This document shows positions 58,509 through 63,927 of a DNA stretch of 64,000 nucleotides, one piece after another. Source of the DNA: Phycicoccus avicenniae (GTDB lineage Bacteria; Actinomycetota; Actinomycetes; Actinomycetales; Dermatophilaceae); contig NZ_JAGSNF010000004.1 of assembly GCF_018139485.1 (NCBI RefSeq), positions 1-64,000 of the forward strand, in the 5' to 3' direction. The translations under genes were made by a program, and so were the position numbers. The notes below the pieces were generated by a model, which was not told the DNA's origin, ran no database searches, and was given only the letters and a program-made list of their open reading frames with translations. Every line of letters begins with the position of its first letter. Position 1 is the first letter of the stretch.

Positions 58509-58555
58509 TGACGGGCGTCATCCAGACGGATGACACCTGTCACTGACGGGTGTGA
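58509..58555. promoter_or_regulatory. Dyad cluster upstream of the lanthipeptide synthetase
   Basis: TGACGGGCGTCA (58509-58520) and TGACACCTGTCA (58531-58542) are perfect 5-bp dyads around a 2-nt centre, 22 bp apart. A third, imperfect copy TGACGGGTGTGA follows at 58544-58555. The cluster is about 70-115 bp before the synthetase ATG, a good place for an activator of the NarL type encoded in the same cluster. Confidence 0.6.
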
Positions 58556-58623
58556 TCCGCGCCTCGACAGGATCGGCGCGGGGATCCGACCGGGCCCCGT
58601 GAGCCGCAGCAGGAGACCCCGCG

Positions 58624-61215
58624 ATGGACCATCGCCACCTCGCCCACCTCGACGCCGACCCCGACTTCTACGACGACGTGTGGCAGGTGGCCCCGGCGCC
58701 GGGCGACGTGCTCGGTCCCGCCGCGGTCCCCGACCGGGTCGAGGTCACCGACCACGGACCGTGGCGGATCTACCGCACCCCGGTCATGCTCCCCGACTCC
58801 GGGTGGAAGGTGCACGTCTCGTGCGTCCCCACCCGCGCCCGGGACGTGGTCGCGACCGTCGTCGCCGAGGCCCTGGCGGAGGACCTCACGTGCAAGCACC
58901 TGCGCAGCCGCCGGCTCGTCGCCGCGAGCCAGGCGAAGTACGCCGACCCCTCAGCGGCCGGGAAGGTCGTGACGATCTACACGGCGGAGGAGACCGCGCT
59001 CGCGCGGATCGTGGCGCGGCTCACCGCCCGGCTCGCCGGCGAACCGGGAGCACGCATCCTCAGCGACATCCCCGTGGACGGGGCGCCGGTGTCGGTCCGC
59101 TTCGGTGCCTTCCGGGGGGTCCACCACGTCGACGCGCTCGGCCGGTGCGCGGTCGGTCGGAGGGGTGCCGCCGGGTCGGCCGACCCGGTGGCCGACGACC
59201 GCTCACCGCACAGCGGTGCTCGCGCCGCGGGGTACGTGCCCGAGGTCGTCGCGATCCTGCGCGAGGCCGCGGCGGCACGCGACGCCGACGCGGTGCTGCC
59301 GGTCACCGACGTCCGGCTGATGCACCGCTCGAACGCCGGCGGGGTGTACTCCGCCACGTGGGAGGACGGACGCCGCGTCGTCCTCAAGGAGGCACGTCGG
59401 CACACCGGCTTCGACGCCTCCGGGTCGGACGCGGTGACCCGGCTGCGGCACGAGCGCCGTGCGCTCGAGCGGCTCGCCGGGACCGGCGTCGTCCCGGAGG
59501 TCGTGCGCCACCACGTCGCGGGCGACAGCGAGTTCCTCGTCCTCGAGCACGTCGACGGCCCGGTCCTCACCTCCGGGCTCGCGACGAGGCACCCGGCCGC
59601 CGTCCCCGGGGCGGACGGACCCGCCTACCGGCACTGGGTCGAGCGCGTCGTCTCGGGGACGCGGGCCTCGCTCGAGGTGCTCCACGCGCACGGCGTCACG
59701 CACCGCGACGTGCACAGCGGGAACGTCATCGACCGCGACGGACGGATGGTGCTCGTCGACCTCGAGTCCGCGGCCGTCGACGGGGTCGCCGTCGCCGAGG
59801 GCGTCGGCACCGTCCTGTCCAGCCCCGGAGCCGACGTCACGCCGCAGGGTGACCTCGACGCCCTCGAGCGGATGCGCGCCGTGCTCGTCAACCCGCAGTA
59901 CTCGCTCACCTCCCGCCGCCCCGACCTCGCGGCCGCTCTCGTGCGGGCGGGGGAGTCCGACCTCGACGACGCCGAGCAGCCGGTCGGCGCCGACGACACC
60001 GAGCCGACCGGCCCGGACCCGGCCCGCCTCCTCGCAGGCCTGCGTGTCGCGGCGGACCCGACCCGGACCGACCGCCTCCTGCCCTCGGACGTCGCGGGCT
60101 TCGCGGTGCCGGGGGGCGGGCTGGGACTGCTGCACGGCGCCGGGGGCGTCCTCGCGACCTTGGCCCGCACGGGGGCACAGGTCCCGGACGAGTGGCGCGC
60201 CTGGCTCGTGGCCCGCGCGCTCGAGGCGCCCTACCTCGCCCCGGGGCTCGGCGACGGCGCCGAAGGTGTCGCCCTGTGCCTCTCGATGCTCGGCGAGGAC
60301 GACGCGTCACGCACCGTCCTCGAACGGTGGGCCGACCGGTCGGGGGCCTGTCCCTGGTGGTCGCGCGGTGCCGCGGGTCGGGCCGTCGCCCTCGCCGAGC
60401 TCTCCGCCCGACTCGACGACCCGTCCCTCGCCGCGACCGCGCTCGGCCTCGCCACGGAGGTGCTGGAGGCGGTCGAGACCGACGTTCCGCCGCCCGGACA
60501 CCGCGCCGGGCTGCTCGACGGGTGGGCCGGGGTGGGCCTCGCCCTGCTCCGGGTCGCCGAGCTCACCGCCGGCGCCCCGCCCGGTCCCGGCGCCGACCTC
60601 ACCGGGCCCGGCGGCGCCCCGCTCGGGCCCGACGGGGTCGCCGCGCGCCTGCGCGCCGGCGCCCGCGCCGCCCTGCGCCGCGAGACCGGCGCCGTCCGGG
60701 TCAGCGCCGGGGCCTGGCTCACCGGTGACGGCCGGCGCGTCATGCCCTACCTCGGCACCGGGTCCGCCGCCCTCGGCCTGCTCGCCGCGGCCCTCGGCGA
60801 GGACGGGGACCCCGAGGCGGTCCGCGGGGTGCGGCTCGCGTGCTCGCTGCGCTCGGTGGCGGGTGCCGGCCTGCTGCACGGCCGGGCCGGACTCCTCGCC
60901 ACCCTCACACTGCTCGCGCCCGACGACCCGGTCGTCGCCACCCACCGGCGCCGGCTGGCCTGGTACACCGTCCCCGCCCACGCGACGGGTCGCCGCGAGC
61001 ACCCCGAGGCCGCGGAGGCCGACCTCGTCCTGGGCGACCAGAACATGCGCTGCGCGGCCGACGTCGGCTCGGGGGCCGCGGGCGTCCTGCTCGTGGCCGA
61101 CCCCGACCCGCGACGGGCGGCGGGGGCCTTCTCGGACCTGCTCTGCCTGCCCCGGGCCGGCACCGGATGGCACGACGTCACGGATGCCATGACACCCGTC
61201 ACGACAGGTCGCTGA
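58624..61215 (+). CDS. Class III lanthipeptide synthetase LanKC
   Basis: An 863-residue three-domain enzyme. Residues 1-225 are the N-terminal phosphoserine-lyase region (YDDVWQVAPAPGD, KVHVSCVPTRARDV, CKHLRS). About 230-440 are a Ser/Thr kinase: glycine-rich NAGGVYSA, Lys255, catalytic HRDVHSGN (360-367) and metal Asp379 in VDLES. About 495-850 are a LanC-like cyclase with seven GxxG repeats. The zinc Cys-Cys-His ligands of LanC/LanL are absent (SRGAAG and LLHGRAG at their places), which marks class III rather than class IV. It phosphorylates, eliminates and cyclises the precursor. AGGAG precedes the ATG. Confidence 0.92.
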   Translation: MDHRHLAHLDADPDFYDDVWQVAPAPGDVLGPAAVPDRVEVTDHGPWRIYRTPVMLPDSGWKVHVSCVPTRARDVVATVVAEALAEDLTCKHLRSRRLVAASQAKYADPSAAGKVVTIYTAEETALARIVARLTARLAGEPGARILSDIPVDGAPVSVRFGAFRGVHHVDALGRCAVGRRGAAGSADPVADDRSPHSGARAAGYVPEVVAILREAAAARDADAVLPVTDVRLMHRSNAGGVYSATWEDGRRVVLKEARRHTGFDASGSDAVTRLRHERRALERLAGTGVVPEVVRHHVAGDSEFLVLEHVDGPVLTSGLATRHPAAVPGADGPAYRHWVERVVSGTRASLEVLHAHGVTHRDVHSGNVIDRDGRMVLVDLESAAVDGVAVAEGVGTVLSSPGADVTPQGDLDALERMRAVLVNPQYSLTSRRPDLAAALVRAGESDLDDAEQPVGADDTEPTGPDPARLLAGLRVAADPTRTDRLLPSDVAGFAVPGGGLGLLHGAGGVLATLARTGAQVPDEWRAWLVARALEAPYLAPGLGDGAEGVALCLSMLGEDDASRTVLERWADRSGACPWWSRGAAGRAVALAELSARLDDPSLAATALGLATEVLEAVETDVPPPGHRAGLLDGWAGVGLALLRVAELTAGAPPGPGADLTGPGGAPLGPDGVAARLRAGARAALRRETGAVRVSAGAWLTGDGRRVMPYLGTGSAALGLLAAALGEDGDPEAVRGVRLACSLRSVAGAGLLHGRAGLLATLTLLAPDDPVVATHRRRLAWYTVPAHATGRREHPEAAEADLVLGDQNMRCAADVGSGAAGVLLVADPDPRRAAGAFSDLLCLPRAGTGWHDVTDAMTPVTTGR
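61190..61201. promoter_or_regulatory. Dyad upstream of the lanthipeptide precursor
   Basis: TGACACCCGTCA repeats the element found before the synthetase (4 of 5 arms paired; a 14-nt block ATGACACCyGTCAC is shared). It overlaps the end of the synthetase gene, 108 bp before the precursor ATG, and suggests a second promoter that allows high precursor expression. Confidence 0.5.
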
Positions 61216-61309
61216 CCGCGGCTACTACTGCGGCTCCCCGGGGCCGACGAGAGTGGAACCAGTCGAGCGGGAAGGCCGCCGGCACCACGTAGGGAGAGGA
61301 CGAACCACC

Positions 61310-61408
61310 ATGAGCGTCAACGAGATGCAGACCCTGACCACCGTCGACGAGGTCATCGACGGGCCGATGGACTGGCCCTTCAGCACGATCTCGATCGTCT
61401 ACTGCTGA
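61310..61408 (+). CDS. Class III lanthipeptide precursor, single labionin motif
   Basis: A 32-codon gene with GGGAGAGGA about 8 nt before the ATG. The leader contains the amphipathic NEMQTLTTVDEV segment, resembling the LxLQxL recognition helix of class III leaders, followed by DGPMDW. The C-terminal 8 residues STISIVYC are exactly Ser-x2-Ser-x3-Cys, the pattern that class III enzymes turn into one labionin or a lanthionine plus dehydroalanine. The Cys is the final residue. No GG or other classical protease site is present. The position, directly after the LanKC gene and before an ABC-like gene, supports the call. Confidence 0.88.
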   Translation: MSVNEMQTLTTVDEVIDGPMDWPFSTISIVYC

Positions 61409-61411
61409 GTC

Positions 61412-62107
61412 GTGGTCGTCATGACGTCCCCGGCCCCCGGGGGTCGACGCGAGCGGCCGGCCCTGCCCCGGGCCGGGGTGGTGGCACTCCGGGTCGACGG
61501 CCTCTCGGCCGACGGGGACGCGACCCGGGACTCCGCGACGGTCACGGACGTCGGGTTCGGGGTCGAGGCGGGCAGCGTCGTCCTCCTCACCCCGGCCGGC
61601 GCCGGCCGCACCGTCGTCCTGTGCCTCACCGGCGAGCTGCCCCGCCGTTCGGGTCGGGTCGAGAGCGGCTCGGGTGCGGCGCGTCGAGAGGTCGACGACA
61701 CGGCCTGGCGCGCGGTCCTCGGCCGGGTGCCCGGCCCGCCGGAGACCCCCGCCGACACCCCGGTGGGCACCGTGCTCGACGAGCGGGGTGAGGCCGCCCG
61801 TCGGATGGCGGCGCGCCTCGGGGTCACGGTCGACGCCGGGACCCACGTCGGCGACCTCGACCCGGCCGACGGGATCCTGCTCGGCGTCGCCGTCGCCCTC
61901 GCCGACGACCCGGACGTCGTCGCCGTCGACCTCCGGGGTCCGACCCGCGTCGTCGCCCACGCGGCCACCGTCCTCGACGCCGTCCGCGACGTCGTCGACG
62001 TCGACGGGCGGACCGTGCTCGTCGTCGCCGACGCCGGCGCCCTCGACGCGGCCGCGCTCCGTCTCGTCGACGAGGTCGTCGAGCTCGTCCCCGCCGACGG
62101 GCCGTGA
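61412..62107 (+). CDS. Degenerate ABC-ATPase-like protein of the lanthipeptide cluster
   Basis: A protein of up to 231 residues; GTG at 61412 follows the precursor stop by 3 nt, and an ATG at 61421 is an alternative. The order of segments is that of an ABC ATPase: VTDVGFGVEAGSVVLLTPAGAGRTVVLCLTGELPRRSG (in parts), where Walker A has Arg in place of Lys; then VGDLDPADGILLGVAVALA where LSGGQ should be; then VVAVDLRGPTR where Walker B lacks the catalytic Glu. ATP hydrolysis is therefore doubtful. It may be a regulatory or structural partner of a transporter encoded outside the window, or a decaying gene. Confidence 0.6.
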   Translation: MVVMTSPAPGGRRERPALPRAGVVALRVDGLSADGDATRDSATVTDVGFGVEAGSVVLLTPAGAGRTVVLCLTGELPRRSGRVESGSGAARREVDDTAWRAVLGRVPGPPETPADTPVGTVLDERGEAARRMAARLGVTVDAGTHVGDLDPADGILLGVAVALADDPDVVAVDLRGPTRVVAHAATVLDAVRDVVDVDGRTVLVVADAGALDAAALRLVDEVVELVPADGP

Positions 62108-62120
62108 CGCGTGGGCGCTG

Positions 62121-62126
62121 TTACAG
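62121..62126 (+). promoter_or_regulatory. -10 element of the two-component system
   Basis: TACAGT at 62122-62127 (within TTACAGTCG) fits the TAnnnT pattern and lies about 40 nt before the histidine kinase GTG at 62168, leaving room for a ribosome site (AACGAGG). Confidence 0.45.
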
Positions 62127-62167
62127 TCGCGACGAGCACCCAGGGGGCAGGAACGAGGCTGGTACCG

Positions 62168-63322
62168 GTGAAGAGCCAAGGCGGCGGTGACGCCCGCATC
62201 GCCCTCGTCGCCTCGTGGGGCGTCGTCGTCGTGGTCGTCGTCCAGGGCACCCTGTCGATGCTCACCCAGGAGAGCGACGACCTCACGCTCCTGACCCGGG
62301 CCGTCGCCGTCGTCACCGGCGCGCTCGCCGCGGTCCTCTTCACCGTCGTCCAGCTGCGCTCGGTCCGGGACCGCGACGTCCCCGCCTGGATGCCCTGGCT
62401 CGTCGTCCTGTTCGCCACGGTCGCCTTCGTCATCGGCGCCTGGCTGGCCGCGTCCCTGTCGTTGGGCGTGTTCGCGCTGCTCCTCACGCGGTGGCGGCTG
62501 CTCGCCGTCGGGGCCACCTACCTCGTCGCGCTCGCGGCGTTCATGGTGTCCCAGGAGGTCAACGCCTTCCTCGTCTTCTTCTTCGCGGTCGTCCTCGCGG
62601 CGATCGCCCTCATGCTCTACGTCCTCACCCGGCTCGCCATCACCGTCGGCGAGCTCGCCCGGGCCCGCGAGACCGTGGCCCGGCTCCGCGTCGACGAGGA
62701 GCGGCACCGCATCTCGCGCGACCTGCACGACATCCTCGGACGCAGCCTCGTGGCCGTCGGCCTGCGCGTGCAGACCGCCATCCGGCTCCTCGAGCGCGAC
62801 CCCGCCCGCTGCGGCGAGCAGCTCGAGGAGGTCGGTCGCATGGTCTCGGAGGGCCAGGCGCAGCTGCGCGGACTCACCAGGGGCGAGACGGTGCTCGGCT
62901 TCGCCGACGAGCTCGAGTCCGCCCAGGAGCTCTTCGCCCGGCTCGGCATCCGGTGCGAGGCCGACGTCACGACCGCCGGTCCGATGGGGGAGGTCGTCGA
63001 CTCCCTCGGGTCCCGGGTGCTGCGCGAGAGCGTGACGAACCTGCTCAAGCACTCCCGGCCGTCCTGGGTCGAGATCCGCCTGCGCCAGGAGGCCACCACC
63101 GCCGTGCTCGTCGTCGTCAACGACGGCGCCTCCGACGACGGCCGGGCGCGGGGGACGGGGCTCACCGACCTCGCGAGCCGGGCCGGCGACCTCGGCGGAT
63201 CGCTCGAGGCCGGCCACCTCTCCGACGGCCGCTTCCGGGTCATCGCCCGGCTGCCCCGGGTCGAGGGGTCCGACGCCGCCACGCCCAGCACCCACGAGAG
63301 TCCCTTGGGAGCCCGTCCGTGA
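62168..63322 (+). CDS. Sensor histidine kinase (DesK / HisKA_3 type)
   Basis: A 384-residue membrane kinase. Five to six hydrophobic segments occupy about residues 10-150 with no large external domain, so the signal is probably sensed within the membrane. The dimerisation box is ERHRISRDLHDILGRSL, with the phospho-His in DLHD. The ATPase domain has the N box RESVTNLLKHSRP and G box GTGLTDLASRAGDLGG. GTG at 62168 is preferred over GTG at 62111, which would start before the predicted promoter. The stop overlaps the response regulator start. Confidence 0.88.
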   Translation: MKSQGGGDARIALVASWGVVVVVVVQGTLSMLTQESDDLTLLTRAVAVVTGALAAVLFTVVQLRSVRDRDVPAWMPWLVVLFATVAFVIGAWLAASLSLGVFALLLTRWRLLAVGATYLVALAAFMVSQEVNAFLVFFFAVVLAAIALMLYVLTRLAITVGELARARETVARLRVDEERHRISRDLHDILGRSLVAVGLRVQTAIRLLERDPARCGEQLEEVGRMVSEGQAQLRGLTRGETVLGFADELESAQELFARLGIRCEADVTTAGPMGEVVDSLGSRVLRESVTNLLKHSRPSWVEIRLRQEATTAVLVVVNDGASDDGRARGTGLTDLASRAGDLGGSLEAGHLSDGRFRVIARLPRVEGSDAATPSTHESPLGARP

Positions 63323-63927
63323 CCGACACCGACCGCCTGCGCATCCTCATCGCCGACGACGTCGACCTCGTCGCGGAGGCCTTCCAGGCGCTCCTCGACA
63401 CCGAGCCCACCTTCGAGGTCGTCGGACGGGTGAGCCGCGGCGACGAGGTGGCCGCGGCCGTCGAGCGGCTCTCCCCCGACGTCGCCGTCCTCGACGTCGA
63501 CATGCCGGGGATGAGCGGCATCGAGGCCGCCGCCGGCGTCAGCGGCTGCAAGGTCCTCCTGCTCACGGCCCTCGAGGGTCCCGGGCACATGCACAAGGCG
63601 CTCGCCGCGGGCGCCAACGGCTACATCCTCAAGTCGACGACCGGCAGCCGGCTCGTCGAGGCCATCCGCACCGTCGCGTCCGGTGGGACGGCGATCGACC
63701 CCGAGCTCGCCGCCGAAGCACTGCGCAGCGGACCGTGCCCGCTCACCGACCGGGAGATCGACATCCTCCGGCTCGTCGGGCAGGGTCGCAGCACGGAGGC
63801 GATCGCCGGTGAGCTCTACCTGTCCCGGGGCACGGTGCGGAACTACCTGAGCAACGCCATGGTCAAGCTCGACGCCGAGTCCCGGGCCGAGGCCTTCGCC
63901 AAGGCCGAGCGACGCGGCTGGCTCTGA
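63319..63927 (+). CDS. NarL/FixJ-family response regulator
   Basis: A 202-residue regulator. The receiver domain has the acidic pair in ILIADDVD, the phospho-acceptor Asp in AVLDVDMPGMSG, Thr in LLLTALEG and Lys in YILKSTTG. The C-terminal LuxR-type helix-turn-helix is LTDREIDILRLVGQG then AGELYLSRGTVRNYL. It partners the kinase (GTGA overlap) and is the likely ligand of the dyads before the synthetase and precursor genes. The cluster may continue past the window edge 73 bp downstream. Confidence 0.92.
   Translation: MTDTDRLRILIADDVDLVAEAFQALLDTEPTFEVVGRVSRGDEVAAAVERLSPDVAVLDVDMPGMSGIEAAAGVSGCKVLLLTALEGPGHMHKALAAGANGYILKSTTGSRLVEAIRTVASGGTAIDPELAAEALRSGPCPLTDREIDILRLVGQGRSTEAIAGELYLSRGTVRNYLSNAMVKLDAESRAEAFAKAERRGWL

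Follow-up and report, generated by a model that had tools for sequence, protein, structure and literature searches.

In culture, a large number of the RiPP clusters of actinobacteria stay silent, with no trigger known. In autoinduced lantibiotics with LanRK, such as nisin, and in three-component bacteriocin systems, a peptide together with a two-component system (TCS) controls a bacteriocin-type cluster. In the ComQXPA system, a maturase, a short prepeptide, a histidine kinase (HK) and a response regulator (RR) are described as being encoded by four neighbouring genes of the same strand (PMC4008528), and its regulator is reported to act directly on the promoter of an antimicrobial pathway, that of surfactin (PMC7794433). 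In 22 Bacillus genomes, ComX was reported to be encoded close to class II lanthipeptide clusters (PMC12715929). Among class III-type peptides, noursin is described as having one labionin formed from a single Cys (PMC10206099), and lipolanthines as having one avionin each (PMC10435860).

The stretch of DNA analysed here (the window) comprises positions 1-64000 of contig C11 of a 3.54-Mb Phycicoccus genome. The reading of its open reading frames revealed lanKC, lanA, an ABC-like gene and the HK and RR genes, in that order, at 58624-63927 of the forward strand. All five genes were present where a preliminary description of this DNA had placed them, and the TCS claimed to lie inside the cluster is formed by a DesK-type HK and a NarL-type RR. 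The start codons of the five genes were picked by eye and by comparison with the related genome G008. The features are as follows:

58509..58520, no strand: palindromic box TGACGGGCGTCA, 5' of lanKC
58531..58542, no strand: palindromic box TGACACCTGTCA, centred 88 bp before the lanKC start, with a counterpart in G002 and G008
58624..61215, + strand: LanKC, divergent class III-type lanthipeptide synthetase of 863 aa, with a RamC_N lyase region, a kinase and a putative LanC-like part
61190..61201, no strand: palindromic box TGACACCCGTCA, within the 3' end of lanKC, centred 114 bp before lanA
61310..61408, + strand: lanA, conserved ORF for a 32-aa precursor with the C-terminus FSTISIVYC
61421..62107, + strand: degenerate ABC-ATPase-like protein lacking the Walker A Lys in the alignment
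62168..63322, + strand: DesK-type HK with the H-box and GTG box present and about five hydropathy-predicted membrane stretches
63319..63927, + strand: NarL-type RR with GTVRNYLS invariant in 10 rows

As in ComQXPA of Bacillus, the genes for the maturase, prepeptide, HK and RR follow one another on one strand, here with a pseudo-ABC gene between the prepeptide and the HK. In contrast to ComQXPA, a lanthipeptide synthetase, LanKC, replaces the ComQ isoprenyl transferase, a pseudo-ABC or a second kinase is present in several lineages, the hosts are actinobacterial, and the presumed output is encoded next door. Since the maturase differs, the cassette is not a member of the ComQXPA family, but by analogy it may work in a similar way. 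As with the ComX genes near class II clusters of Bacillus, a modified peptide for quorum sensing would be encoded in the vicinity of a RiPP cluster, although there the peptide is isoprenylated ComX, and here the presumed signal is a lanthipeptide-type peptide. In contrast to LanRK and three-component systems, the presumed signal here belongs to another class than the controlled product. The conserved lyase and kinase residues of LanKC, the short leader and the S-x2-S-x(n)-C motif are as in SapB/AmfS, labyrinthopeptin and noursin, whereas the single motif at the C-terminus, the cassette's own TCS with a distinct RR, and the adjoining RiPP cluster set it apart from them. No paper among the matches listed in the open literature, which leaves most subscription journals outside, describes a cassette of class III lanthipeptide and TCS genes that is linked to a further RiPP cluster.

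The best-matching model of the window LanKC was the NCBIfam LanKC model NF038151 (473.9 bits over residues 7-824), followed by the LanL model (198.5 bits). The N-terminal RamC-type lyase region matched PF25816 (RamC_N) with 124.1 bits (cut-off 27), and the LANC_like model gave 15.6 bits, under its cut-off of 23.2. Solved LanKC-type chains could be aligned to parts of residues 1-404. The class III assignment of the preliminary description was confirmed as to type; because the best model is that of LanKC, but its score lies below the cut-off of 575, we describe the enzyme as a divergent class III-type synthetase. Residues K62, H64, K91, K105, K114, R159, K255 and E277 were invariant in the clade alignment, and we take them, by position and by eye, as the likely counterparts of ThurKC K65, H67, K94, K108, K117, R163, K257 and E279. 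These are listed together with D152 and R191 as lyase/kinase residues of ThurKC (PMC10604976); counterparts of the latter two were absent among the invariant columns of the clade alignment. The synthetase and the peptide form a divergent class III-type pair, so that at most a variation of known chemistry is to be expected.

The window precursor (MSVNEMQTLTTVDEVIDGPMDWPFSTISIVYC) has 32 residues and, as stated in the preliminary description, one C-terminal S-x2-S-x3-C motif (S25-x2-S28-x3-C32), in which the single Cys is the final residue. A purine-rich ribosome site was recognized by eye upstream of lanA. Two genomes of the same genus, G002 and G008, encode LanKC proteins 72 and 73% identical to that of the window, followed at the equivalent place by 33-codon ORFs, and the nine C-terminal residues, FSTISIVYC, are invariant in all three Phycicoccus precursors. 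As ORFs of this length stand at the same place and share the same nine-residue end in two orthologous clusters, the precursor ORF is not a chance one. The preliminary description had named a lack of such conservation beside close LanKC homologues as grounds for dropping its proposal; orthologous ORFs were found in both genomes.

Other statements about the peptide need correction. Two rings are not a general feature of class III peptides, as noursin and lipolanthines have one, and a one-Cys precursor is not unusual: at least 15 of the 67 scanned LanKC loci have single-Cys precursors, a lower bound because candidates had to pass filters on the ribosome site and the leader pattern. The labionin pattern is exact as a motif, but Sx2Sx3C is reported to yield either lanthionine or labionin, depending on the peptide (PMC7268733). 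Similarly, the expected product of core mass minus 36 Da becomes minus 36 or 54 Da, since T26 might be dehydrated too.

A full-length relative of this LanKC was present in 3 of the 12 searched genomes of the genus (G000, G002 and G008). A profile of eight related LanKC proteins matched 17 of 186 family genomes, seven of them with at least 733 bits and the others with at most 505, and 69 of 394 genomes of a class-wide sample, where the best score apart from G000 and G020 was 535.4 bits. In total, the clade comprises 10 genomes of about seven lineages, including Nocardioides litoris and two Rhodococcus; three of the ten are Phycicoccus, and G020 and G207 belong to a common genus. Eight members formed one clade with an SH-aLRT of 100 in a tree of 74 rows, in which long branches meet at that place; G202 and G207, absent among these eight rows, were assigned by score only.

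The gene order LanKC-LanA-(pseudo-ABC)-HK-RR was found across the clade. Its precursors have 32-36 residues, and beside LanKC they carry [ST]-x2-S-x(2-5)-C, except in G207, where S-x-S stands instead of S-x2-S. Cys is the last residue in Phycicoccus, G029, G020 and G207, and is followed by one residue in G202 and Rhodococcus and by four in N. litoris; the G029 precursor has an additional Cys in the leader. An outer relative, G079 (505 bits), has a LanA with two Cys, one of them last, and its LanA, pseudo-ABC, HK and RR genes are separated from LanKC by a YcaO gene.

The cassette RR of the window is 59-66% identical to those of the other lineages, and its motif GTVRNYLS is invariant in 10 of 10 rows. 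In contrast, RRs beside other LanKC loci showed at most 37% identity, save one short match of 44% that is truncated where the locus ends. Two kinases per cassette are encoded in G029, G020, N. litoris and G207 (L034, L035, L048 and L154); there, HK2 lacks the phospho-accepting His (Asn in three, Arg in one) and HK1 has no GTG motif in its ATP site. The single kinases of Phycicoccus, G202, G079 and Rhodococcus retain both motifs, and together with the reciprocal losses in HK1 and HK2 this suggests that the paired kinases may be obligate pairs.

Three lineages retain the ABC-like gene, placed next to the LanA and kinase genes or between the two (window 61421-62107; L155 7526-8290; L165 3634-4170). 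Its product is 48-50% identical within the genus and more diverged in G202 and G079, and in all three lineages the Walker A lysine is missing from the alignment. The G202 protein matched PF00005 (ABC_tran) with 27.2 bits (cut-off 25), and those of the window and G079 had no Pfam ABC match, so that the probable relation to ABC proteins is drawn from the G202 match and the alignment. AlphaFold predictions for five of the sequences were uninformative (mean pLDDT 53.5).

Downstream of the cassette (L031, L159) follow genes for an ABC transporter ATPase, a multicopper oxidase, an AMP-ligase, an aldolase, a DHQS-II and a LuxR protein. They are joined by a thiopeptide precursor (NF033400, 51.9 bits, cut-off 30), a TbtD/PbtD-like protein (125.8 bits, below the cut-off of 325), a YcaO/SagD cyclodehydratase (224.1 bits, cut-off 219.25) and a TIGR03891 protein (93.1 bits, cut-off 48.45). 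The thiopeptide cluster (C11:73.9-84 kb; L159) lies past the window; its precursor (L031 15936-16094) has the core ...SSGSIGTSSSSSSTCSAC, which is identical in G008. The DHQS-II, which scored 497 bits against the 3,4-AHBA synthase model BagC/FevH, below the cut-off of 750, is present in the same 3 of 12 genus genomes as this LanKC and in no others. The 3,4-AHBA-type genes (DHQS-II, aldolase), the AMP-ligase and the multicopper oxidase are an unusual mix for a thiopeptide cluster. A hybrid of the lanthipeptide with a 3,4-AHBA-type aromatic moiety was considered and rejected, as no joining enzyme was noticed and the aromatic genes belong to the neighbouring cluster.

The neighbours differ between lineages. 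Two LanM, a C39 transporter and a lantibiotic alpha precursor (class II) are encoded near the G207 cassette, and YcaO, ThcOx and a thiocillin-family precursor near that of G202. The G020 neighbourhood encodes APH, HopA1, luciferase-like and PF02441 proteins, a combination known from class V lanthipeptides and thioamitides, and APH and PF02441 genes also lie near the RR gene of N. litoris. G029 has a YcaO gene at a distance of 16 kb and a gene for a PF02441 protein at 25 kb, and the Rhodococcus sp. locus L085 includes an upstream gene of the ketosynthase type.

A YcaO or LanM gene lay within 25 kb of LanKC in 7 of the 10 clade genomes, compared with 4 of 78 control places in 67 genomes (Fisher 5e-6), the control count being lowered because control contigs can be short. 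Counted by lineage, the figure was five of about seven (Fisher 7e-5), or Fisher 1e-3 if the N. litoris YcaO gene is treated as incidental, which it may be, as it is 19 kb distant with ordinary genes in between. The misses were G020 and the two Rhodococcus, in whose genomes there was no YcaO or LanM match at all. Of the outer relatives G009, G079 and G131, two lay near YcaO or LanM. From the 17 matching family genomes, this comparison drew on the seven of the clade and these three, with N. litoris added; G188, G074, G068, G088, G013, G031 and G143 were left out. Among the controls, G471, G312 and G224 have a YcaO gene merely 231-348 bp from LanKC, a distinct tight pairing of class III and YcaO genes.

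The cassette and its neighbours share a palindrome with the consensus TGAC-N4-GTCA, often ATGACACC(C/T)GTCA(C/T), which we defined post hoc, after inspection of the loci, and searched in the strict form RTGACRNNYGTCAY and in a loose form. A box precedes lanA in all 11 measured loci, centred 114-133 bp ahead of the start in nine of them (120 bp in Rhodococcus), 154 bp in G079 and 187 bp in G202; the spacing of the window box at 61190..61201 is identical in G002 and G008. Boxes also precede lanKC in Phycicoccus, G202, G029 and probably G020, where the start codon is unsure, and none was found before lanKC in G207, N. litoris, G079 and Rhodococcus. In L031, two boxes before lanKC and one before lanA (114 bp) are followed by boxes before the genes for the ABC transporter (124 bp), multicopper oxidase (82 bp, start by eye), LuxR (66 bp), thiopeptide precursor (156 bp) and TbtD-like protein (96 bp); several of these positions recur at similar distances in G008. 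Elsewhere, boxes stand 128 bp before the class II precursor (G207), about 129 bp before the PF02441 gene and 96 bp before the LuxR gene (G029), 122 bp before APH (G020), 170 bp before a putative peptide precursor with no Pfam match and 64 bp before an ABC gene (G079), and 64-66 bp before ABC genes (G202 and N. litoris). Contrary to the preliminary description, this is thus not a compact free-standing cluster of 5.4 kb, as the operator-like palindromes tie the cassette to the thiopeptide cluster, and the functional unit seems to reach past the window, as far as roughly 86 kb on the contig. A strict box is also present about 25-30 kb from lanKC in the three Phycicoccus (L159 8363, that is C11:86361; G002 C2:411685; G008 C1:762567).

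The 20 kb of L031 contain 8 boxes, compared with 0.30 in shuffles. The strict form occurs 11 times in the whole genome, 5 of them in the 28 kb of C11:58508-86361, and the backwards pattern once. Total and near-cassette counts in the other genomes were 7 and 4 (G002), 6 and 4 (G008), 4 and 3 (G029), 8 and 3 (G202), 8 and 2 (G207), 7 and 2 (N. litoris), 6 and 1 (G020), 8 and 1 (G079) and 10 and 1 (R. ruber, G586). The backwards pattern was found 0-3 times per genome except in R. ruber, where the strict form (10) is no commoner than the backwards pattern (9). When sites near LanKC were subtracted, the strict form was still in excess in the three Phycicoccus (P 0.0068, 0.002 and 0.0012); P was 0.03-0.11 in G029, G202, G207 and N. 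litoris, and there was no excess in G020 and G079 (P = 1).

Outside the cassette, the loose form was found at 18 sites in 229 kb of seven lineages, with G079 in and Rhodococcus out, compared with 2.7 expected at the rate of the control LanKC loci (10 sites in 847 kb; P 7e-10). The 22 other loci of the family and order have 3 sites in 76 kb, which raises the expectation to 9 of 18 (P 0.005). Two sites were present in 154 kb of 28 LanKC loci of the class, one in the 58 kb of the window ahead of the cassette, and one per Rhodococcus genome, with 14 kb examined in each. For single lineages the excess is weak (P 0.06-0.31 for G029, G202, G207, N. litoris and G079). Thirteen of the 18 sites lie 64-170 bp before a gene start, one of these starts being set by eye and two further starts assigned separately; the other five are intragenic or unplaceable.

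We give about an even chance (roughly 0.5) to the reading that this is a pheromone-like signal cassette with a ComQXPA-like layout, in which LanKC acts as the maturase and which controls the adjacent RiPP cluster; the earlier guess that the peptide is possibly a signal was, on this reading, a good one. LanKC would phosphorylate, dehydrate and cyclise the C-terminal S-x2-S-x3-C of LanA to give one lanthionine or labionin ring, and the peptide would be cut and exported, perhaps by the candidate exporter encoded by the ABC transporter genes after the RR gene. The DesK-type kinase would sense it, and the phosphorylated NarL-type RR would bind TGAC-N4-GTCA upstream of lanKC and lanA, giving feedback, as well as the boxes before the genes of the transporter, the multicopper oxidase, the LuxR protein and the thiopeptide precursor and enzymes. 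We infer from this that the cassette may switch on the neighbouring thiopeptide-type cluster, the control being presumably positive. Since there is one conserved RR and a shared box, and the class of the neighbour varies while the cassette is constant, a control cassette is the simplest account, and a peptide signal is the best guess because the peptide and its maturase sit between box and kinase. The box could also belong to another regulator, such as the LuxR protein encoded next door. More tentatively, the cassette may be a transferable actinobacterial quorum-sensing unit with a one-ring class III signal, joined separately to thiopeptide, class II and class V-like clusters by a single conserved operator, TGAC-N4-GTCA. 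What is new is how the cassette and the box are linked with RiPP clusters of several kinds. If true, the added peptide or a read-out of the box would be a direct handle for locating and activating the linked antibiotic clusters, small class III lanthipeptides would gain a plain signalling role, and such bacteria would have a new way to time antibiotic production.

The main rival to this signal cassette, which we regard as less likely, is that the one-ring peptide is a co-regulated second product, an effector such as an antibiotic helper, an immunity or a surface peptide, and that the TCS senses something else, e.g. envelope stress. Co-regulation would suffice to explain the shared boxes and the adjacency, membrane sensing is common among DesK-type kinases, and the paired kinases of four lineages may sense other cues. 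However, a control module fits a constant cassette with neighbours of changing class better than a fixed partner product does, and lanKC and lanA are themselves preceded by boxes.

The reading towards which the preliminary description leaned, a free-standing SapB-like morphogen or surface peptide, with RiPP neighbours and boxes incidental in an island of secondary metabolism, appears improbable. Although SapB and AmfS are described as class III peptides acting as extracellular differentiation signals (PMC13380574), and the precursor tail is hydrophobic, AmfS-type loci have two Cys motifs per precursor in contrast to the one Cys of the window precursor, YcaO or LanM genes are rare near control LanKC places (4/78, from contigs that can be short), and boxes are scarce in the control loci (10 in 847 kb).

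Finally, a lipolanthine-like product, with the C-terminal Cys oxidatively decarboxylated to avionin, is very improbable and was rejected for Phycicoccus: the class III-type synthetase, the C-terminal Cys after S-x2-S and the one ring predicted here are as in microvionin and nocaviogua, and PF02441 proteins are encoded in the LanKC neighbourhood of G020, G029 (25 kb) and N. litoris, as well as in that of P. flavus outside the clade, but G000, G002 and G008 lack a second PF02441 (LanD-type) gene, the single one, probably that of coenzyme A biosynthesis, being on another contig or 2.2 Mb off.

Other precursors were noticed as well. The different LanKC of P. flavus (G009; L036/L006), which falls outside the clade, is accompanied by two tandem precursors ending in SFQSTSC and by the PF02441 gene about 6 kb off, and this class III cluster looks lipolanthine-like. 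Six alike one-Cys class III precursors (..PWSS[ILF]S[LVIF]FNC[SH]) stand in a row after LanKC in Winogradskya (L045 and L046). In L051, L057, L093, L095 and L096, tandem 27-aa precursors have S-x2-S-x2-C at the very end, a spacing described for a lipolanthine (Avi2, Avi5, Avi8; PMC10435860).
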